In this document: positions 1 through 9,093 of the stretch, piece after piece
Position numbering within the stretch: position 1 is the first letter of the stretch
Layout of the letters: the number at the start of each line of letters is the position of its first letter
Assembly (NCBI RefSeq): GCF_015767435.1
Contig: NZ_JADWOV010000319.1
Location: 1 to 64,000 of the forward strand
DNA from: Polaribacter sp. BAL334
GTDB lineage: Bacteria; Bacteroidota; Bacteroidia; Flavobacteriales; Flavobacteriaceae
Direction of reading: 5' to 3'
DNA length: 64,000 nucleotides
The notes under the pieces: model-generated
The model's database searches: none
The model's input: the letters and a program-made list of their open reading frames with translations, nothing else
What the model was told of the DNA's origin: nothing
Made by a program: the position numbers and the translations under genes

Positions 1-65
1 GGTTTTAGGGAACTTTTTTTTAGGGGTTTTAGGGGTGTATTTATGAACTTTATATTCTTATTTAC
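1..65 (-). ncRNA. candidate small RNA 1 of a three-member tandem array (cut by window edge)
   Basis: No open reading frame is present. On the minus strand, a -7 element (TAATTTTA, 70-77) is followed by a transcript of which about 65 nt lie in the window. It shares the early block AATATAAAGTTCA with unit 2 (TTTATAAAGTTCA). It then has ACACCCCTAAAACCCCTAAA, also like unit 2. The 3' end and terminator lie left of base 1. Start position is inferred from promoter geometry. It could instead be the leader of a gene outside the window. Confidence 0.55.
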
Positions 66-69
66 ACAG

Positions 70-168
70 TAAAATTACATCTTAAATTTCATAAAAACTC
101 TAAAAATCGTCTTTGGTAAGCATTCGTATTAAAGAAGAAATAACTGTGTTCTTTTTAGGAATAACTGT
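70..168 (-). promoter_or_regulatory. LytTR-type paired direct repeat plus promoter for small RNA 1
   Basis: On the minus strand ACAGTTATT occurs twice (160-168 and 139-147) with exactly 12 nt between. This is the 9-12-9, 21-nt-period architecture of LytTR-domain binding sites; AgrA-type repeats read ACAGTTAAG. The promoter-proximal repeat ends 62 nt from the -7 element TAATTTTA (70-77). That element differs from the Bacteroidota consensus TAnnTTTG only at its last base. The same spacing recurs in the two other units. Confidence 0.7.
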
Positions 169-205
169 TTTTTCTTACAATAAACGTTATCAGTTTTTGG
201 GCAAT

Positions 206-249
206 AAAAAAATCTTCTAGAATATTTAGGGGTCGATTCTAGAAGATTT
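206..249 (-). terminator. intrinsic terminator of small RNA 2
   Basis: A perfect 14-bp stem pairs 210-223 with 236-249 around a 12-nt loop (224-235) that contains CCCC on the minus strand. The minus-strand 3' side runs into a U-tract (A-run at 206-212 on the plus strand). Confidence 0.85.
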
Positions 250-331
250 TCAGTCTTAAGGGGGTTAGGGGTACTTTTTTTAGATTAGGGGTTTTCGGGG
301 GTTTTTTGGTGAACTTTATAAACTGTTTGAT
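206..331 (-). ncRNA. candidate small RNA 2, C-rich, with intrinsic terminator
   Basis: A minus-strand transcript of about 125 nt is predicted between the -7 element TAAATTTG (336-343) and a strong terminator (206-249). No ORF fits. The body carries C-tracts separated by A/T (ACCCCCG, ACCCCTAA, ACCCCTAACCCCC), and the terminator loop adds another GACCCCTAA. C-rich single-stranded loops are how several known bacterial small RNAs pair with G-rich translation starts; that role here is inference. The first 20 or so nt resemble units 1 and 3. Confidence 0.65.
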
Positions 332-335
332 ATAG

Positions 336-434
336 CAAATTTACCTCATTTAAACCATATAATATTGAAAAACAGTGTTTGGTAAGTATGTGATCATAGA
401 GGGATATAAGTGGCTGATTTTTGGGAATAAGTGG
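336..434 (-). promoter_or_regulatory. LytTR-type paired direct repeat plus promoter for small RNA 2
   Basis: Minus-strand repeats CCACTTATT (426-434) and CCACTTATA (405-413) are separated by 12 nt. The -7 element is a perfect TAnnTTTG (TAAATTTG, 336-343), again 62 nt from the proximal repeat. CTTACCAAA lies 18 nt further on (378-386), at the same offset as in unit 1 (112-120). No good -33 TTTG is seen, which fits an activator-dependent promoter. Confidence 0.7.
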
Positions 435-516
435 TTTAATAATGAATTTTGATATATTTTTTAATCTAATTCTTACATATCAATAATTAAAAAATAATGA
501 AAAAAAATTCTTAAAC

Positions 517-555
517 AAAAAAAAACTCCTAGAATTCGGGGGAATATTCTAGGAG
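517..555 (-). terminator. intrinsic terminator of small RNA 3
   Basis: A perfect 10-bp stem pairs CTCCTAGAAT (526-535) with ATTCTAGGAG (546-555) around a 10-nt loop. On the minus strand it is followed by nine U (A-run 517-525). Confidence 0.88.
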
Positions 556-618
556 CGGATTCTACCAATTTAATTGCTAGGAAAAACTAAAAAATCACTA
601 TGAAACTTTATTATTAAC
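517..618 (-). ncRNA. candidate small RNA 3 with intrinsic terminator
   Basis: A minus-strand transcript of about 100 nt is predicted from the -7 element TAATTTTG (623-630) to the terminator at 517-555. Its start (AATAAAGTTTCA) matches the start of units 1 and 2. The middle has diverged and lost the CCCCTAA repeats. The terminator loop still exposes CCCCC. No ORF is present. The shared start, shared promoter layout and own terminator support a diverged paralogue. Confidence 0.65.
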
Positions 619-622
619 GCAG

Positions 623-721
623 CAAAATTATATCAATTTTATTTTAGGAATTCAAAAATATAATTGCAGTTAGCAACTGATTTTCACATAAAATAAGTGT
701 ATGGTTTTTGGGAATAAGTGG
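623..721 (-). promoter_or_regulatory. LytTR-type paired direct repeat plus promoter for small RNA 3
   Basis: Minus-strand repeats CCACTTATT (713-721) and ACACTTATT (692-700) are 12 nt apart. The -7 element TAATTTTG (623-630) fits TAnnTTTG and is 62 nt from the proximal repeat. A -33 TTTG is at 653-656 with 22 nt spacing. The three regulatory segments in the array are all exactly 99 nt long. Confidence 0.72.
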
Positions 722-800
722 TTTATAATTCAAAAACAAATATTGTTGTTTCCGAAAATAGTTAGGTAAGAAATAGATTGGTTTTTTTATATGAAGATAA

Positions 801-1985
801 TTATTTTGGAACTTTTACAATAAAAGTTGTTCCTTCATTTAAAACAGAATTTACATGGATACTGGCTTTTAAATTGTCTGCTATTTTTTTGCAGATTGCC
901 AGTCCTAAACCAGTCCCTTCGTATTTAGAATTTGAATGCAAACGTTTGAATGGTTTGAAAATATAGTCAAAATAGTCAGATTCAATACCAATTCCGGTAT
1001 CTTTTATAGATAATATCCAAGAATCAATTTCTTCTTTAGCACTTATCTCAATAGTCAAAGGTTCAGTATCCTTTTTATATTTGATAGCATTTGATAAAAA
1101 GTTAGTAAACAGCACTGTAAATGCAATTTTGGAAGAAAATAAAGTGGGTAAATTAGTACAAATCAATTTTGGTTTTTCTTGAATTGTGCATGTTAAACTA
1201 TTAAAAAGTTCGGTTACTAATTCATTGAGATCAAATTTTTCAAAGTTTCCAACAGCATTCGTACTTTTACTATATTCCAACAAATTGTTGATTAAATCGT
1301 TCATTTTACCCGTACTTTGAAGTATAAATCCAATATACTTCTCGTCTTTTTCATCCCATGTTGAATGATACTTTTTGTCAATTAATTTCGTAAAAGAATC
1401 AATAGCTCTCACTGGCGCTTTTAAATCATGAACAGCCATGTAAGCAAAATCTTCCATGTCTTTTGAATATTGTTCAATCTTTACTTGATATTCATTAACT
1501 AATTTTGTTTTTGCACGTAATTCTATCAAATATTCTACATGTTTTGATAAAATCACCAACATTTCTTTTTGTTCCTCAGTTAATATTTTTACTTCATAAT
1601 CAATCACACATAAAGTTCCTAAAGCAACACCTGATTTTGATTCTAATGGAACGCCATAGTAAGAAACAATTTTCGGATTTTCATAGACTAATGGATTTTC
1701 TATAAAACGAACGTCTTTTCTTGCGTCTTCTACAATAAAAATTTCATCGGGTTTTTCGATTGCCAATTTACAAAATGCTTGTTCTATAGGGGCTTCTGTG
1801 ATTGATATTCCAAATCTTGATTTGAAAAGCTGTTTGTGAATGTCTAAAACTGTAATTAAGGCAACAGGAGTTTTACAGATTTTTGATGCTAATTCTGTAA
1901 TATCATCAAACATTTTTTCTGATGCTGTATCTATTAGATTCAGTTCAATAAGTGCTTTTTGTCTTTCAATATCAGAGATTGTCAT
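801..1985 (-). CDS. GAF-domain sensor histidine kinase
   Basis: This soluble kinase of 394 residues has no membrane segment. Residues about 25-155 form a GAF domain (…GVPLESKSGVALGTLCVID). A HisKA domain follows with the phospho-acceptor His near residue 186 in the H-box AVHDLKAPVR. The HATPase domain shows an N-box Asn near 299, DTGIGI near 329-334 and GTGLGLAICKK. It should sense a cytoplasmic signal and phosphorylate a receiver protein. It is divergent from the LytTR regulator 79 nt away, and the single-domain receivers nearby are candidate partners. Its 3' end points into the small RNA array, which starts 80 nt further on. The ligand cannot be told from sequence. Confidence 0.9.
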   Translation of the reverse strand: MTISDIERQKALIELNLIDTASEKMFDDITELASKICKTPVALITVLDIHKQLFKSRFGISITEAPIEQAFCKLAIEKPDEIFIVEDARKDVRFIENPLVYENPKIVSYYGVPLESKSGVALGTLCVIDYEVKILTEEQKEMLVILSKHVEYLIELRAKTKLVNEYQVKIEQYSKDMEDFAYMAVHDLKAPVRAIDSFTKLIDKKYHSTWDEKDEKYIGFILQSTGKMNDLINNLLEYSKSTNAVGNFEKFDLNELVTELFNSLTCTIQEKPKLICTNLPTLFSSKIAFTVLFTNFLSNAIKYKKDTEPLTIEISAKEEIDSWILSIKDTGIGIESDYFDYIFKPFKRLHSNSKYEGTGLGLAICKKIADNLKASIHVNSVLNEGTTFIVKVPK

Positions 1986-2064: not shown

Positions 2065-2814
2065 ATGAAGGTTTTACAAGCAATAGTTATTGAAAATGAT
2101 TTGGATGTAATTAAATTGCTCAAACAATTTGAAATTGAAAATTCAGTTCTATTTTCAGTTATAGCTTTTGTAGATGATTGTAAAAATATTACTTCACTCA
2201 TCAATGAAAAAAAACCTGATGTGTTATTTATCTGTAAAGATCAGTTTACCTATGACCCCAAAATTTTAAACGATTTAACTGTTCGTAAACCTAAAATAAT
2301 CATTGCATCTAAAGATAAATGCGATGCTTATGAAGCGTTTGGTCACAATGCCATCGACTTTTTATTGAAACCTTTAAACACAAATTCACTCATAATTTCT
2401 ATTTATAAAACAATCAAATACTTAGAAATGGAAACTGTTTTTCAAGATGATGTGCTAGGAAAAATTAAAACAATCAATTCGTTACAACAAAAGTTCGAAT
2501 ATGTTTCAATAGCATCTGTTGATAAAATTGAATTGTTAAAAATTGAAGATATTATATTTTGCAAAGCTGATGGAAAATATACCGAGTTTTACACAACTAA
2601 TGATGCTAGAATGATTTCAAGCAGAAATTTAGGAGAATATACACTAACTTTAAGCAATAATTTTTTTAGAATTCATCATTCTTATATTGTAAATATCAAA
2701 TATTTAGTAAAAATAATTAAGAATAACGGACTATTTTGTGAATTAAAGAACGGACACATTTTGCCAGTTGCAAAAAGAAGACAAGAAGAATTTATGAAAT
2801 TTATCAACCATTAA
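2065..2814 (+). CDS. LytTR-family response regulator with degenerate receiver
   Basis: This 249-residue DNA-binding regulator has an N-terminal receiver fold (about 3-120) and a C-terminal LytTR domain (about 147-247). The LytTR part shows IIFCKADGKYTEFY and RIHHSYIVN, both typical of the family. In the receiver, the phospho-acceptor slot of the motif PDVLFIC is Cys57 instead of Asp. The switch Lys (LLKPLN, Lys102) is kept, and the N-terminal acidic pair reads EN. It is therefore probably not controlled by ordinary phosphorylation. LytTR proteins bind 9-12-9 direct repeats, and three such sites lie about 1.3-1.9 kb away in this window, so it is the obvious candidate to bind them. That link is inference. 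A receiver-only gene follows 22 nt downstream. Confidence 0.9.
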   Translation: MKVLQAIVIENDLDVIKLLKQFEIENSVLFSVIAFVDDCKNITSLINEKKPDVLFICKDQFTYDPKILNDLTVRKPKIIIASKDKCDAYEAFGHNAIDFLLKPLNTNSLIISIYKTIKYLEMETVFQDDVLGKIKTINSLQQKFEYVSIASVDKIELLKIEDIIFCKADGKYTEFYTTNDARMISSRNLGEYTLTLSNNFFRIHHSYIVNIKYLVKIIKNNGLFCELKNGHILPVAKRRQEEFMKFINH

Positions 2815-2836: not shown

Positions 2837-3226
2837 ATGAGCTTCAAATACAAAAAAATAATGATTATTGATGACGATGCTATTGATAATTATTTGGTGA
2901 ATGTTCTGATCAAAACCAATCAAATAGCCGAAACTGTTTTGGAATTTGATAATGGAGAAAAAGCAATAGAATATTTACAAACAAATAGAGATATTCACGA
3001 CAATTTGCCGGAATTAATTTTGTTGGATATTTATATGCCAAGAATGAATGGAATAGAATTCATAGAAAAATTAGATGAATTAGATATTCCTTGTGGAAAA
3101 AAATGCAAAATTTGTGTGGTTTCTAGCAGCATTAATGACAATGATATTCTGAGAACAAAATTGAATTCTAATGTTTTTAAATATACTACCAAACCAATTA
3201 CGCCAGAGTTTTTATTATCTTTATGA
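2837..3226 (+). CDS. single-domain response regulator (CheY/Rcp1-like)
   Basis: This stand-alone receiver has 129 residues and no output domain. The acidic pocket IDDD (11-14), phospho-acceptor Asp64 in LLDIYMP and the Lys of TTKPIT are all intact. It should act as a phosphorelay intermediate or bind a partner protein. It follows the LytTR gene by 22 nt and is probably co-transcribed. Unlike that neighbour's receiver it keeps all catalytic residues, so it could relay phosphate from one of the two kinases here. It ends 7 nt before the convergent receiver gene. Confidence 0.88.
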   Translation: MSFKYKKIMIIDDDAIDNYLVNVLIKTNQIAETVLEFDNGEKAIEYLQTNRDIHDNLPELILLDIYMPRMNGIEFIEKLDELDIPCGKKCKICVVSSSINDNDILRTKLNSNVFKYTTKPITPEFLLSL

Positions 3227-3233
3227 CAAAATT

Positions 3234-3629
3234 TTAAACAACAAATTCAATAGTTTCTTTCAGAATATTTGGATTTAAATCGTCTTTCATCAACAAATTA
3301 GATACCCCCAATTTTTTACTTTCTTGAACAATTTTTTCGTTTTTATGACCAGATAATAAAATTATTGGAGTTGAATCTGCATGAAGTAGGAGATTTTGAA
3401 CCAACTCTATATCACTTGAATCTGGTAAATGTAAGTCAGAGAAAATGACTGAAATTTTATTTCTATTATTTTTTATAAAATCTATTGCTGTATTAAAATT
3501 TGCACAGTGATTTATAAAAATATTTTCAAAAGATTCTTTTAAATATTCTTCTAGTAAAAAATAATCTCCAAGATTATCTTCAATTACTAAAACATCCAAT
3601 TGAGTTATTTCAGTAAGGGTCTTTGCCAT
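3234..3629 (-). CDS. single-domain response regulator
   Basis: This 131-residue receiver-only protein has the acidic pocket (VIEDN, 15-19) and phospho-acceptor Asp65 in VIFSDLHLP. The Thr/Ser switch and Lys regions are recognisable (IILLSG, LLMKDD). No DNA-binding domain follows. It lies 4 nt downstream of another receiver gene and is in the same orientation as the large multi-PAS kinase. The three genes probably form one operon in which the kinase feeds the two receivers. The final output is not visible. Confidence 0.86.
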   Translation of the reverse strand: MAKTLTEITQLDVLVIEDNLGDYFLLEEYLKESFENIFINHCANFNTAIDFIKNNRNKISVIFSDLHLPDSSDIELVQNLLLHADSTPIILLSGHKNEKIVQESKKLGVSNLLMKDDLNPNILKETIEFVV

Positions 3630-3633
3630 TGAG

Positions 3634-4065
3634 TTATTCTGATAATGTTGTTAATTGCAACCAAAATTCTTTAATTTTTAAAATAGCATCTAAAAAATCT
3701 TGAATTTCAACTGGCTTTGTAATATAACTATTTGCGTGATTTTCATACGCTTTATCAATATCTTGCTGATTTGAAGAAGTGGTAAGCATAATCACTGGAA
3801 TTTTTTTTAGTATAGGATCTTCTTTGATTTTTATAAGCACTTCATGACCATTAAAAATGGGCATGTTAATGTCTAAAAGAATCAAATCTGGTTTTTCAAC
3901 ATTTGAAAAAGATCCTTTTTTGTACAAAAAATCAAGCGCTTCTTGACCATTTCTGGCAACACTTATTTTTGAATCAATTTTGCTTTCTTCAAATGCATCA
4001 ATAGTTAAAATAATATCACCTTCATTGTCTTCTACTAAAAGGATGTGTGTCTTATTTATTTTCAT
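3634..4065 (-). CDS. single-domain response regulator (Rcp1-like)
   Basis: This receiver of 143 residues matches the family often found beside phytochrome or multi-PAS kinases. The acidic pocket is VEDNEGD (11-17), the phospho-acceptor is Asp65 in LILLDINMP, and TTSSN and YITKPVE carry the switch Thr and Lys. There is no output domain. It lies 75 nt downstream of the 1650-residue kinase and 4 nt upstream of a second receiver, so phosphotransfer from that kinase is likely. Confidence 0.9.
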   Translation of the reverse strand: MKINKTHILLVEDNEGDIILTIDAFEESKIDSKISVARNGQEALDFLYKKGSFSNVEKPDLILLDINMPIFNGHEVLIKIKEDPILKKIPVIMLTTSSNQQDIDKAYENHANSYITKPVEIQDFLDAILKIKEFWLQLTTLSE

Positions 4066-4140: not shown

Positions 4141-7100
4141 TTATGACTTTTCGATGCTTTTGGGTATTGTAAAAAAGAAAGTAGCTCCTTCATTAATATT
4201 AGAAATTACTCCAATGATACCTCCCCAAGATTCTACTTGTTTTTTAGCAATTGCCAATCCAATGCCTGTTCCTTCATAGGTTTCTTTGTTATGAAGTCGT
4301 TGAAAAATAACGAATATTTTTTCATGGAATTTTGGATCAATTCCAATACCATTGTCTTGAACAAAGATTTTAAAGTAATTTTCATCTTCTTCAGAATAAA
4401 TATTTACTCTTGGAAAAATATCTTTTCTAGAATATTTTAAAGCATTGTCAATTAATCCGTGAAGTGTTTGAATGAATGGTGATTTGAAACATTGAATGAT
4501 GGGCATATTTCCTACATTTAATTCAACATTTTTATCGATAATTAGTTGTTTTCTAAGAAACTCATATTCCAAAATAATATCCATCACAGCAAAAGTTTCT
4601 GGAGTTTCATTGATTTTTCCTGCTCTTGAATACTCTAATAAATCAAGAATAATTTTTTTCATTCTTCTAGCTCCATCAGTCGCAAAATGAATGTATTGCA
4701 TTCCTTTTTCATCCAATTGAGTTTCGTATTTTCTTTTCAATAAATCCATAAAGCTAGAGATCATTCGCAAAGGCTCTTGCAAGTCATGAGAGGCAATAAA
4801 AGCAAATTGCTCTAATTGTTCGTTTGATAATTCAAGGTCTTTGGCATACTTTCTTAAGGATTCATTCAGCGCAATTAATTCTAATTCTTGTGCTTTTTGT
4901 TTTGTCAAATCAGCAATTGAACCAAACATTTTCTCTACTTTTCTTTCTGAATTTCTAATAAATATTCCTTTGTCAATGACAAATAAAATAGTTCCATCTC
5001 TTTTGATAAAGCGATATTCTTCAGCCCATTTTAAAATAGTTGGATCTGCAATGGCATCAAAAATACTTTTTCGAACTCTTTCAACATCTTCTGGATGGAT
5101 TTGGTCCAACCATAATTTTGAACTTGGTTTTACAGTTTTTAAATCATATCCTAAAATTGTTTCAAAACCTGCTCCCCAATAGTGAGAATCATCAATAATT
5201 CCCCATTCATAAATGGCATCACTTGTTGCTTCAGCCACTTTTCCAAAACGTTCATTGGCTTCAATTAATTTCAAATCAGCCTCTTTTCGTTGTGAAATGT
5301 CTTTAAAATATACGGATAAACCTTCCTTTGAAGGATAAGCTGCAATCTCTAACCATTTTTTTAATGTAGTGGAGTATATTTCTATATTTAAAGTTTCTTT
5401 TGTTTCTAATGATTTTTTTAAACTTTTATAGATTCCAAAATTAATACCGTCATTAAATACTTCTCGAATATTTTCTCCTACAATTTCTTCTCTATTCTTT
5501 CCAACTAAAACCTCTGCTTGTTTGTTCCAGTAAGTAACTCTCCAATATTTATCAACAGCAAAAAAGGCATCACCAATACTTTCTAATATTTTATTTTTTT
5601 CATTTAAAATTTTTAAAATCCTCTCATCAGCTAGCTTTTTCTCAGTAATGTCAATACGGATTGCCATATACTGAAATGGTTGCATATTTTCATCTAAAAA
5701 GGGAATGACAGTGCTCAAAGCCCAATAAAGAGTACCGTCTTTAGCTCTATTTTTCACTTCGCCTCTCCAAACTTTTCCAGCCTTAATTGTATCCCAAAGA
5801 ACTTTAAAAAAGGCTTTTGAATGGTATGTTGAATTGATAATTTTATGCGTATTTCCTTCTAATTCTTCTCTTGAATATTTTGAAAGTTTGCAAAAATTAT
5901 CATTTACATCTATTATGATTCCATTTTTATTGGCAATGGTTATACTTGCAGATTGATCAAGTGCAAGTTTATAATCTTTTAAATTTTTTAAACTTTCTTG
6001 AAGTGCAATTTCATTTAGTTTTTGTTTATTGATATCTTGAATACTTCCATAAATTCTTATGACTTTTCCATTGATTATCTCAGCATTTCCATGAGTTCTA
6101 ATCCATATTTCATTATTTTTAGCAGTAATCAAGACTGCTTCAAAATTGTATGGTTTTCCATTTTTTATACAATCTTGAACTCTGCAAGTAATTAAATCTT
6201 GAAAATCTTTTCGATAAAAATTAATTGCCGTGTCAATATTTGGATTAAAATCAGTTACCGATGTTTCATGAATTTCATGAACCATGTCTGACCAAAATAA
6301 TTGGTTACTGATCAAATCAACCTCCCAACTTCCTATTCTGGCTAATTTTGACGTTTGCTCTAATAATTCTTTGTTTTTTTCTTCATAAGTAACATCTAAA
6401 ACAACTGAGTTAAAAAGTGTTGTGCCATCAATTAAATAACTTGGAGTTCCTAATCCTAAATAGGTTTTAACTTCACCATTTGGTTTCACATTTCGCCATG
6501 TTGCAGTCCATTTTGATTTTGACGTCATAGAATCTAAAACGGTTTGTTTGATACGTTCTAAACTTCCACCAAGTTCAATTTGTTTCCAAACTTTATTTAC
6601 ATTTTCTAAAACTTCATCTGGGCTATATCCCCAAAGTTCATATGAACCTTTTGTAACGTATCTAATAGAATCAGTTCCATCAGGATGTATTAAATATTGA
6701 TATGCAACACCTGGTAAATTATCTGCTAAAGATTGATATCGTAATTCAGTTTGTTTACGTTCGTTTATATCTTGAAAACTACCAAAAACTCTAAGGCATT
6801 TTCCATTAACAAATTCAGCATTTCCAATGCTTTTTATCCATAATTCATTATTTTTCGCGGTAACTAAAACAGCTTCAAAGTTGAATGGAGTTCCAAATTC
6901 TATACAGTTAGAAACATTTTTTGCAACTAAATCTTTAAAATCGTCTCTATAAAAATTGATTCCTGAATCAACACTTGGTATATGATTCTTAGGATCCGTT
7001 TCATGAAGTTCATGAACCATATCAGTCCAATATACCTTATTATTGATCAAATCAACCTCCCAACTTCCAATTCTGGCTAATTTTGATGTTTGTGTAGTTA

Positions 7101-9093
7101 GGTCTAGAAGTCTTATTTCTTGTGTAATATTTTTTGCAGAAGCATAAATTAATCCTTCCTCTAAATTAATGTTGCTTGTCCAACTCAACCAAACAATTTC
7201 TCCATTCTTTTTAATGTATCTGTTTTGAAAATTGAGAGTTTTGTTACCATTATTGAGATTTTTTAAATCTGAATTAGAAATGTTTTTATCCTCAGGATGA
7301 ATAAATTTTTCATAATTGTAATGCAATATTTCATCCTCTTGATGTCCAAGGATTTCACATCCTGCTTTGTTTATTTTTAAAAACGTACCATTCAAGTCAG
7401 TTACACAAATCAAATCAGGAACAGCATCATACAAATGATTTAAATCATTTTCGAGTTTTTTACGATTGATTTCAGATCCGATAAAATCTTTTAAATCTTC
7501 GAGGGTTGTTTGATGGTTTATTAGATATTTAGAATTGTTTTTTGTTCCAACTATCATTATACCAATTACTTCATTATTAAATAAAAGTGGGATGCCAAGC
7601 ACAGTATTGATTCCTGAGCTTTTAGCGGCGTCTTTTCTAATAAAATCTAAGTTTTCACTAACATCACTCCAAAGAACTGACGATTTTTTTTGCCATACCA
7701 ATCCAGGAATTCCCTCTTGTGGAAGTATAGAAGTTTTATTGAATGATGATTTATAAAACTTTTCAGCAATTTTTGAGTTGCAAATTTTTGAGATAAGATT
7801 TATTTTTGTTTTATCAAGGTTTGGTAACCATATTTCTGCAAAATCAAAATTTCCAAAATCACAAATTGTTTGGCAAACTTTTTTTGTTGAAGATATTAAT
7901 GAATTTTCATCTTTAAAATTAGTACTAATTTTAGCTAATAAATCTTTTTTAAGTTGGGTTTGTTTTTCTTTTGTGACATTTTTTTGGATTGAAATCCAAT
8001 TTGTATAAGCACCAGTTTCGTTAGTAATGGGTGTTACCGATAATTTTACCCAAAATTCGTCACCATTTTTCTTATTATTTAATACCGTTATTTCACAGGG
8101 TTCCCGATTTTTTAAAGCTGTTTTAAGTTTTTCTAATTCATTTTTATCTGAGTTAGGTCCTTGCAAAATGCGGGGAGTTTTTCCAATAATTTCTTCTGCT
8201 GTATAACCAGTCATTTTTGTAAATGCCTGATTTACATAAATAATTTTAGGTCCCGAATTTTCTATAGGTTCAGCTTCAGTTATAACAATAGCATCTTTGG
8301 TGTTTTTAATGACGTTTTCAAGTAATCTTAACCTTTCTTCTTCTTCTTTCCGTTCTGTAATATCTTGAACAGTCCCTTCTAGACTTATTGGAACTCCGTT
8401 TTCATCACTTTTTACACTAGCAATTTCATGAACCCATTTTACAGATGAATCAGGTAAAATAATTCTATGGATGGCATCATGAAAACCATCATCTTTAATG
8501 GATTTTTTATATCGCTGCAAAAGATTTTCCAAGTCATTTGGATAAATGGTATCAAGAACACTTTGAAGGCTTGACTGTTTTTTTTTATTTTTTCCACCCC
8601 AAATTTGACTGACTTCTTCTGTCCAAGTAATTGTATTAGTTGCAAGTTCAAGTCTCCAATAACCTAATTTAGCAATATTTGCAGCTTCTTTTAGTTGTTC
8701 TTCAGTTTTTATAAGTTTTGCAAGTTGAACTTGTTTTTCAGTTACATCTTGAGAAATATTTAGGATACATTTTTTATTGTTGAAGTTTACTTTATGACCA
8801 ACAATATCCATTTGAATAAGGTTGCCATTCTTTTTTTGATGAGATAAAATTCCGAATTGAATTTTTCCTTCAGTTGTATCAATATTTCTTAAAAAGTCGT
8901 CTAATTTTGAAAAATCTTCTTTTGGCCCTAAATCTCTTAAAGTAAGAGAAAGAAACTCTTTTCTGGAATATCCATAAAGTTCTATTGCAGCCGCATTTAC
9001 TTCTAAAATTTGAAATGTTGCAATTTCATAAATCCAAGAAGGAAGAGGATTTAAATTGAAAAAATCAGTACAATTAATCTCTATTTCACCCAT
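4141..9093 (-). CDS. large multi-PAS/GAF sensor histidine kinase
   Basis: This soluble hybrid sensor has 1650 residues and no transmembrane segment. Approximate order: three PAS domains (10-375), one GAF (380-550), then seven PAS (552-1410), HisKA with His near 1436 in ASHDLQEPLR, and HATPase with NALKYSRK, DNGIGID and GTGIGLAIAKK. PAS 5 and PAS 7 (near residues 667 and 912) are close duplicates, both starting TSKLARIGSWEVDLI, and the DNA is also nearly identical there. PAS 3 has a LOV-like stretch (GKTPRILQGP), but the flavin-binding Cys is Pro, so it is not a LOV photoreceptor. It heads an apparent operon with two receivers. The signals are unknown; redox, light or small ligands are all possible for PAS arrays. 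Confidence 0.9.
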   Translation of the reverse strand: MGEIEINCTDFFNLNPLPSWIYEIATFQILEVNAAAIELYGYSRKEFLSLTLRDLGPKEDFSKLDDFLRNIDTTEGKIQFGILSHQKKNGNLIQMDIVGHKVNFNNKKCILNISQDVTEKQVQLAKLIKTEEQLKEAANIAKLGYWRLELATNTITWTEEVSQIWGGKNKKKQSSLQSVLDTIYPNDLENLLQRYKKSIKDDGFHDAIHRIILPDSSVKWVHEIASVKSDENGVPISLEGTVQDITERKEEEERLRLLENVIKNTKDAIVITEAEPIENSGPKIIYVNQAFTKMTGYTAEEIIGKTPRILQGPNSDKNELEKLKTALKNREPCEITVLNNKKNGDEFWVKLSVTPITNETGAYTNWISIQKNVTKEKQTQLKKDLLAKISTNFKDENSLISSTKKVCQTICDFGNFDFAEIWLPNLDKTKINLISKICNSKIAEKFYKSSFNKTSILPQEGIPGLVWQKKSSVLWSDVSENLDFIRKDAAKSSGINTVLGIPLLFNNEVIGIMIVGTKNNSKYLINHQTTLEDLKDFIGSEINRKKLENDLNHLYDAVPDLICVTDLNGTFLKINKAGCEILGHQEDEILHYNYEKFIHPEDKNISNSDLKNLNNGNKTLNFQNRYIKKNGEIVWLSWTSNINLEEGLIYASAKNITQEIRLLDLTTQTSKLARIGSWEVDLINNKVYWTDMVHELHETDPKNHIPSVDSGINFYRDDFKDLVAKNVSNCIEFGTPFNFEAVLVTAKNNELWIKSIGNAEFVNGKCLRVFGSFQDINERKQTELRYQSLADNLPGVAYQYLIHPDGTDSIRYVTKGSYELWGYSPDEVLENVNKVWKQIELGGSLERIKQTVLDSMTSKSKWTATWRNVKPNGEVKTYLGLGTPSYLIDGTTLFNSVVLDVTYEEKNKELLEQTSKLARIGSWEVDLISNQLFWSDMVHEIHETSVTDFNPNIDTAINFYRKDFQDLITCRVQDCIKNGKPYNFEAVLITAKNNEIWIRTHGNAEIINGKVIRIYGSIQDINKQKLNEIALQESLKNLKDYKLALDQSASITIANKNGIIIDVNDNFCKLSKYSREELEGNTHKIINSTYHSKAFFKVLWDTIKAGKVWRGEVKNRAKDGTLYWALSTVIPFLDENMQPFQYMAIRIDITEKKLADERILKILNEKNKILESIGDAFFAVDKYWRVTYWNKQAEVLVGKNREEIVGENIREVFNDGINFGIYKSLKKSLETKETLNIEIYSTTLKKWLEIAAYPSKEGLSVYFKDISQRKEADLKLIEANERFGKVAEATSDAIYEWGIIDDSHYWGAGFETILGYDLKTVKPSSKLWLDQIHPEDVERVRKSIFDAIADPTILKWAEEYRFIKRDGTILFVIDKGIFIRNSERKVEKMFGSIADLTKQKAQELELIALNESLRKYAKDLELSNEQLEQFAFIASHDLQEPLRMISSFMDLLKRKYETQLDEKGMQYIHFATDGARRMKKIILDLLEYSRAGKINETPETFAVMDIILEYEFLRKQLIIDKNVELNVGNMPIIQCFKSPFIQTLHGLIDNALKYSRKDIFPRVNIYSEEDENYFKIFVQDNGIGIDPKFHEKIFVIFQRLHNKETYEGTGIGLAIAKKQVESWGGIIGVISNINEGATFFFTIPKSIEKS

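Follow-up and report, generated by a model that had tools for sequence, protein, structure and literature searches.

A putative LytTR-controlled array of CCCCUAA small RNAs in Polaribacter and a candidate partner RNA with a UUAGGGG loop

The Csr/Rsm sponges (RsmY, RsmZ, CsrB) are two-component-controlled RNAs that carry many copies of a short motif, GGA, which is also present at mRNA starts, and the factor that they titrate is a protein. In streptococci, several small RNAs (csRNAs) are controlled by one response regulator, CiaR, which is not a LytTR protein. The sites of LytTR regulators consist of two direct repeats with a period of 21-22 nt. Excerpts of the published description of LhrC1-5 from Listeria monocytogenes (PMC4132741) present a multicopy RNA family that is controlled by one two-component regulator (LisRK), carries C-rich motifs several times over, in unpaired stretches as well as in the loop of the terminator, and blocks a G-rich Shine-Dalgarno site. 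The multicopy FopS RNAs of Bacteroides thetaiotaomicron act at the start codons of surface-protein mRNAs, where they are direct repressors that bind RbpB; LytTR control is not reported in the excerpts of that study (PMC11697453). Rfp18 of Flavobacterium psychrophilum is a structured RNA conserved within its genus, with metalloprotease and adhesin mRNAs as the predicted pairing targets of one of its stem-loops (excerpts of PMC9723704). In open-access literature, LytTR combined with small RNAs and flavobacteria matched one or two papers (PMC5395568, PMC10057207). Small RNAs of Polaribacter matched only papers with unrelated titles, and neither CCCCTAA nor CCCCUAA was found among the ten best of thousands of matches.

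The tandem array of Polaribacter sp. BAL334 described here can be compared with each of these systems. Like LhrC, it has several copies, a predicted dependence on one two-component regulator, and repeated C-rich motifs that extend to the terminator loop, although unit 3 has its motif in the loop only. The regulator family and the phylum differ, and, whereas LhrC blocks a G-rich site, the array motif is also found on mRNAs and its complement on another small RNA. Because GGGG is not enriched at 644 BAL334 starts and the genus starts show CCCC, we do not file the array as LhrC. From the Csr/Rsm sponges it differs in its repeated motif, which is CCCCUAA and not GGA, and in the titrated factor, which is most likely an RNA. 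The logic of a small-RNA sponge, shared in part with Csr/Rsm, is the reading that we favour. FopS is similar in its multiple copies, its occurrence in Bacteroidota and its link to surface-protein mRNA starts, but it has a different seed and represses directly. The csRNAs are, to our knowledge, unrelated to the array RNAs.

The window that we analysed is a stretch of 64,000 nucleotides. On the minus strand of its positions 1-735, one design is repeated three times, comprising a paired repeat, a TAnnTTTR -7 element and a terminator. The paired repeats, of the form CACTTATTCC-N11-CACTTAT (CAGTTAT in unit 1), were placed by a site pattern scan at 693-720 (unit 3), 406-433 (unit 2) and 140-167 (unit 1). 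Their period is 21 nt in all three units, upstream of the promoter, as in LytTR regulons. A preliminary description, made from the sequence alone, had reported three such pairs with a -7 element exactly 62 nt beyond each, and this spacing holds: the elements are TAATTTTG (623-630), TAAATTTG (336-343) and TAATTTTA (70-77), beginning at 630, 343 and 77, respectively, against a background rate for TAnnTTTR of 0.002 per base. With 5' ends placed from the positions of the -7 elements, the predicted RNAs would span 515-616 (unit 3, with one CCCC block, in the terminator loop), 202-330 (unit 2, with five CCCC blocks) and 1-64 (the 5' part of unit 1), all on the minus strand. The terminator of unit 3, as read from the sequence, is a perfect 10-bp stem (526-535/546-555), as described earlier; that of unit 2 (209-223/236-250, with CCCCUAAA in the loop) is likewise perfect, with a stem of 15 bp and not the 14 bp first given. 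The earlier statement that no protein gene lies here also holds, as closed ORFs of at least 60 aa are absent from positions 1-777 and AUG is absent from the three RNAs. The anatomy of three minus-strand units with promoters and terminators is well supported, and the units are probably transcribed as discrete RNAs.

Unit 1 leaves the window, as had been noted, because the window begins at the end of contig C245. Contig C220 completes it: the two contigs share an overlap of 108 nt, with one mismatch, at the end of C220. The high end of C220 (locus L015) carries the whole of unit 1, with four CCCC blocks and its own CCCC-loop terminator, and beyond it lie two alpha/beta-hydrolase genes. The single-contig genome G020 has the same order, with the kinase followed by two RNA units and by ORFs of 304 and 287 aa, which are equal in length to the hydrolases of C220 and have a similar start. 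This gene order supports the join of C245 and C220, which we infer.

The array sites are three of only five sites with at most three mismatches in the 3.3-Mb BAL334 genome. A looser pattern (at most two mismatches) gave five matches in this genome versus none for the backwards control. The five sites belong to the three units, the hydrolase operon and a gene for a 72-aa membrane protein on contig C191; the regulon appears to extend beyond the RNAs, with the same promoter type at the alpha/beta-hydrolase operon and at 72-aa membrane-protein genes. Among 52 distinct sites (at most two mismatches) in the loci scanned, the exact 62-nt spacing was found for 16 of 18 sites in the five genomes with an ortholog of the LytTR regulator discussed below, versus 4 of 34 elsewhere. 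The two exceptions in the ortholog genomes are one G031 site and one G062 site; the four 62-nt sites elsewhere are in G065, G099, G134 and G138, and the other sites have a -7 element at 33 nt, 53-54 nt, other distances or none. In a narrower count of 12 chosen loci from six regulon genomes (at most three mismatches, some sites left out), all 20 sites had the 62-nt spacing (five each in G000 and G020, four each in G114 and G031, and one each in G062 and G065). Within the spacer, T occupies position 36 in 20 of these sites and position 37 in 19; a -33 element would fall here. The spacer also holds a third conserved box around TnCTTAC (C14 in 20 of 20, T18 and C20 in 19 of 20; in the window, for example, at 391-378, between site and promoter), which may be a further half-site. 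Recurrence of the site-promoter geometry and of the units in related genomes, which the preliminary description had named as a check, was found, and the geometry did not arise by chance.

The sites of G099, G134, G138 and G157 were considered as array RNAs and rejected, being mostly multi-repeats before a LytTR regulator and other genes. By reading, they are without CCCC RNAs, and their -7 element lies at 33, 53-54 or 62 nt or was not found. Autoregulation is suggested at L083:2896 (G099) and L087:2340 (G134), where a LytTR-type regulator ORF is preceded by a -7 element with the same site type 62 nt ahead of it.

The candidate activator of the array is encoded close by. A LytTR response regulator gene (2065-2814, plus strand) is divergent from a GAF-histidine kinase gene (801-1985, minus strand) and adjoins a gene for a stand-alone receiver protein (2837-3226, plus strand), followed by two more receiver genes (3234-3629 and 3634-4065, minus strand). 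Beside the receiver genes, positions 4141-9093 encode a 1650-aa histidine kinase with many PAS domains. The kinase/LytTR/receiver neighbourhood, including the same kinase neighbour, is preserved in G020, G062 and G114. Orthologs of the 2065 protein with at least 68% identity are present in five of the 166 genomes of the genus (G000, G020, G031, G062 and G114), and its next-best relatives have 35-38% identity. A site with at most one mismatch occurs in all five ortholog genomes and in 5 of the 161 others, a co-occurrence expected by chance with a probability of about 2.5e-7 (hypergeometric, relatedness ignored). The exceptions are G065, G019 and four genomes with another site type; G065 (82% complete) has a two-mismatch site and an RNA, and a LytTR ortholog was not found in it. 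The identical geometry in relatives, the synteny and this co-occurrence support the earlier proposal of a small-RNA array under LytTR-type control. A LytTR protein would bind the array sites, and the 2065 protein is the most likely candidate.

The three units contain four, five and one CCCC blocks (units 1, 2 and 3, respectively), and 7 of the 9 blocks in units 1 and 2 are CCCCUAA. Among 18,600 windows of 129 nt from the same genome, only unit 1 itself has four or more. The RNAs are rich in A and U and have little structure apart from the terminator, which has CCCC in its loop. A covariance model built from six units without unit 3 (R1) recovers unit 3 at 40.4 bits and detects a further unit in G062 (49.5 bits) directly behind the orthologous kinase gene; in locus L229, no site with at most four mismatches was found before this second G062 unit. 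Covariation in the terminator stems of this small unit set amounts to two double-changed pairs, and 62 of 500 shuffles were as good. R1 also matched 3' terminators of protein genes, at 35-41 bits. By reading, at least L105, L107, L109, L111, L112, L114, L115, L117 and L118 were rejected as chance matches, and L099-L101, L103, L104, L108, L113, L120, L122 and L123 were taken as other RNAs or leaders with CCCC motifs. Apart from tRNAs, no Rfam family reached its gathering score in the window or in 12 loci that included the array, the UUAGGGG RNA described below and the Flavobacterium celericrescens array; matches below threshold were weak (sbrA, for example, at 20.7 bits). The preliminary observation of a tandem array is confirmed and its interpretation, as a whole, partly supported; not noted in it were the repeats of CCCCUAA, the recurrence of this motif at start codons of mRNAs and the partner RNA with a UUAGGGG loop.

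A separate array is found in Flavobacterium celericrescens (L196:290-1075), where four tandem small-RNA units have the same type of paired site. The -7 element lies at 33 nt in the three units scored, and the terminator stems vary. The units share an invariant core with GGGGG that ends CTGTAGGGGG(G/A)ATTTAA and contains UAGGGG, the complement of CCCCUA.

The array motif recurs around mRNA start codons in the genus. Paired CCCCTAA is present in 86 of the 166 genomes, and the arrangement CCCCTAA-ATG-CCCCTAA in 58 places from 38 genomes, versus 5 for the backwards control. The ATG opens an ORF of at least 60 aa in 38 of the 58 places, versus 515 of 3914 background ATGs; the other 20 have no such ORF. 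By eye, the 38 ORFs start like signal peptides or lipoproteins, and the complete ones include two proteins with type IX sorting tails and one CAP-domain protein. Since the downstream CCCCTAA stands in two reading frames among these ORFs (31 and 7), a nucleotide motif is favoured. In the BAL334 genome (1.26 Mb scanned), we counted five starts with CCCC just before the ATG. Two belong to 72-aa genes and one to the hydrolase operon; the remaining two are those of a 163-aa protein and of a protein whose Hpt match is below threshold. The start of the 163-aa protein is flanked on both sides by the motif, as in its G062 counterpart. Six of 11 stop-bounded ATGs with CCCC close before them were set aside (five ORFs of 63-90 aa and a 518-aa ORF with CCCCACTG). 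No CCCCTA was found within 30 nt of 644 predicted starts in 0.86 Mb of the same genome. At least four C's stand close before the ATG in 9 of 11 of the 72-aa genes from five genomes and in two of three hydrolase leaders.

The 72-aa membrane-protein family with C-rich leaders (L396:11132-11345, L414:16885-17100) has 1-3 copies per genome among those read and no match in Pfam or NCBIfam; in G062 (L356), one copy and the UUAGGGG RNA are about 80 nt apart. Six genus genomes (L175, L181, L183, L194, L278, L279) carry a conserved element CCCCTAAATnAATAnATATGAAnTAA...CCCCTAA without a 60-aa ORF, perhaps a further CCCCUAA RNA. The repeat CCCCTAAGTATCCCCCTAGTATCCCCTAAGTAT, exact or nearly so and with an 11-nt period, is found between genes in G000 (two places), G020 and G062 (L155, L157, L160, L161).

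The complement of the motif is displayed by a separate small RNA. This partner RNA consists of two hairpins, the first of which shows in its loop UUUAGGGG, the exact complement of CCCCUAAA from the unit 2 terminator. In an alignment of eight sequences, all 168 of 168 cells are paired and six pairs are changed on both sides, and none of 500 shuffles was as good. At an E-value of 1e-4, model R3 found the partner in 48 of the 166 genus genomes, with AGGGG in the loop of 45 of the 50 matches read (51 in all; one of the five others was misread at the edge of a contig). The flanks of eight loci were read, and in all of them the partner follows the same gene, which is THUMP-like by Pfam (one tested); in six of the eight it is followed by an ORF that we take to be fdhD. 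The BAL334 copy (C242:163758-163837, 40.1 bits) follows this gene too, as its counterparts in relatives do; it fell below the genus-wide threshold and was recovered by searching fetched stretches. At E 1e-4 the partner was found in none of G020, G031 and G114, a threshold that also missed the BAL334 copy. It was first met through model R2, most other matches of which are unspecific. A search of 12 genomes for TAGGGG before a T-run revealed no conserved RNA (110 matches versus 63 for the control), missing the partner because its T-run lies beyond the reach of the pattern. Rfp18 is possibly related to the UUAGGGG RNA; it belongs to a different genus, and the two are likened by description and not by sequence.

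The loop of the BAL334 partner, UUUUAGGGGU, pairs with unit 1 over 10 of 10 nt (-14.2 kcal/mol), and pairing as good was obtained with 18 of 1000 dinucleotide-shuffled units and 1 of 1000 shuffled loops. For unit 2 the energy is -13.4 kcal/mol (56 of 1000 units, 8 of 1000 loops) and for unit 3 -11.4 kcal/mol (58 and 4, respectively). These values are for the loop only, as duplex energies of the whole RNAs ignore the cost of opening the stem; against dinucleotide-shuffled units, the pairing is modestly special. The longest complement to the loop RNA is 10 nt in unit 1 and at most 9 nt in unit 2, with none of 7 nt or more in unit 3. As in a sponge, a second small RNA of the cell finds several complementary sites in the array, and pairing between array and partner is likely. 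The loops pair only slightly better with mRNAs of their own genome than foreign loops do (7.8 versus 7.3 nt, better in 14 of 18 cases), and G043, G046 and G156 have UUAAGGG(G) loops, yet CCCCTAA places are present in them (places that were selected by that motif); strict co-evolution is therefore not shown. If co-variation holds, the counts of CCCCUUAA versus CCCCUAA at starts would shift in genomes with UUAAGGGG loops.

We propose that the LytTR-controlled array provides decoys that free CCCC-tagged mRNAs from the UUAGGGG RNA, a reading to which we give slightly better than an even chance. When the kinase/LytTR system fires, a LytTR regulator, most likely the 2065 protein, would switch on the three RNAs from sites that end 62 nt before the -7 element of each RNA gene. 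Units 1 and 2 would expose four and five CCCC blocks, mostly CCCCUAA, to the UUAGGGG loop of the separate conserved RNA. This RNA would otherwise pair with CCCC around the start codons of secreted proteins, lipoproteins and small membrane proteins and hinder initiation. The decoys would rise together with some CCCC-tagged mRNAs (those of the 72-aa protein and the hydrolase operon), which would escape once the UUAGGGG RNA is titrated. Several observations count against this proposal: the single CCCC block of unit 3, the absence of CCCCTA near the 644 predicted BAL334 starts, the modest advantage of the pairing over shuffled units, the small difference between own and foreign loops on mRNAs, the partner not found in G020, G031 and G114 at E 1e-4, the site and RNA of G065 with no LytTR ortholog found, and the second G062 unit with no site found before it.

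The best-surviving alternative, though an unlikely one, is a protein sponge resembling Csr/Rsm, in which an RNA-binding protein reads CCCCUAA at mRNA starts and the array titrates that protein. It would account for the presence of the same motif on decoys, on mRNAs (where it often flanks the start codon on either side) and in terminator loops, as in Csr systems, and it fits the weak co-variation between loops and targets. However, 48 of 166 genomes, and BAL334 itself, have an RNA with the exact complementary loop, and this conserved RNA makes an extra protein unnecessary. Direct antisense action, with C-rich RNAs pairing to G-rich mRNA leaders and blocking their translation, seems decidedly unlikely: the control of several RNAs by a single response regulator and their C-rich motifs, unpaired or in the terminator loop, do recall LhrC (excerpts of PMC4132741), but GGGG is not enriched at BAL334 starts (ratio 1.09; 644 starts, 0.86 Mb), the genus starts show CCCC and not its complement, and Bacteroidia ribosomes ignore Shine-Dalgarno sequences (excerpts of PMC9976891). 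It is also improbable, and rather more so, that the UUAGGGG RNA has a positive effect on CCCC mRNAs, by activation or stabilisation, and that the array lowers their output; F. psychrophilum requires the possibly related Rfp18 for two metalloprotease mRNAs to reach their full levels (excerpts of PMC9723704), but motifs on both sides of a start codon are more easily read as blocked initiation. That the array is a set of regulator sites and terminators in AT-rich intergenic DNA without functional, discrete small transcripts, as the degenerate unit 3 might suggest, is hardly credible given the recurrence of motif content and geometry in G020, G062 and G065 and the separate four-unit array with its invariant core in F. 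celericrescens.

Returning to the decoy proposal, it may be extended to a genus-wide CCCCUAA/UUAGGGG network in Flavobacteriaceae, in which one conserved loop RNA masks the start codons of secreted-protein mRNAs at sites on either side of the AUG and is itself controlled by a LytTR two-component system by way of decoy arrays; we hold this wider reading tentatively, at somewhat less than an even chance. If true, Csr-like logic would rest entirely on pairing between RNAs, in bacteria without Shine-Dalgarno pairing. Targets can be predicted in each genome from the short motif. In the Flavobacteriia, where post-transcriptional control is little charted, a two-component system would then determine, by means of decoy RNAs, how much secreted and surface protein (type IX cargo, lipoproteins) is produced.
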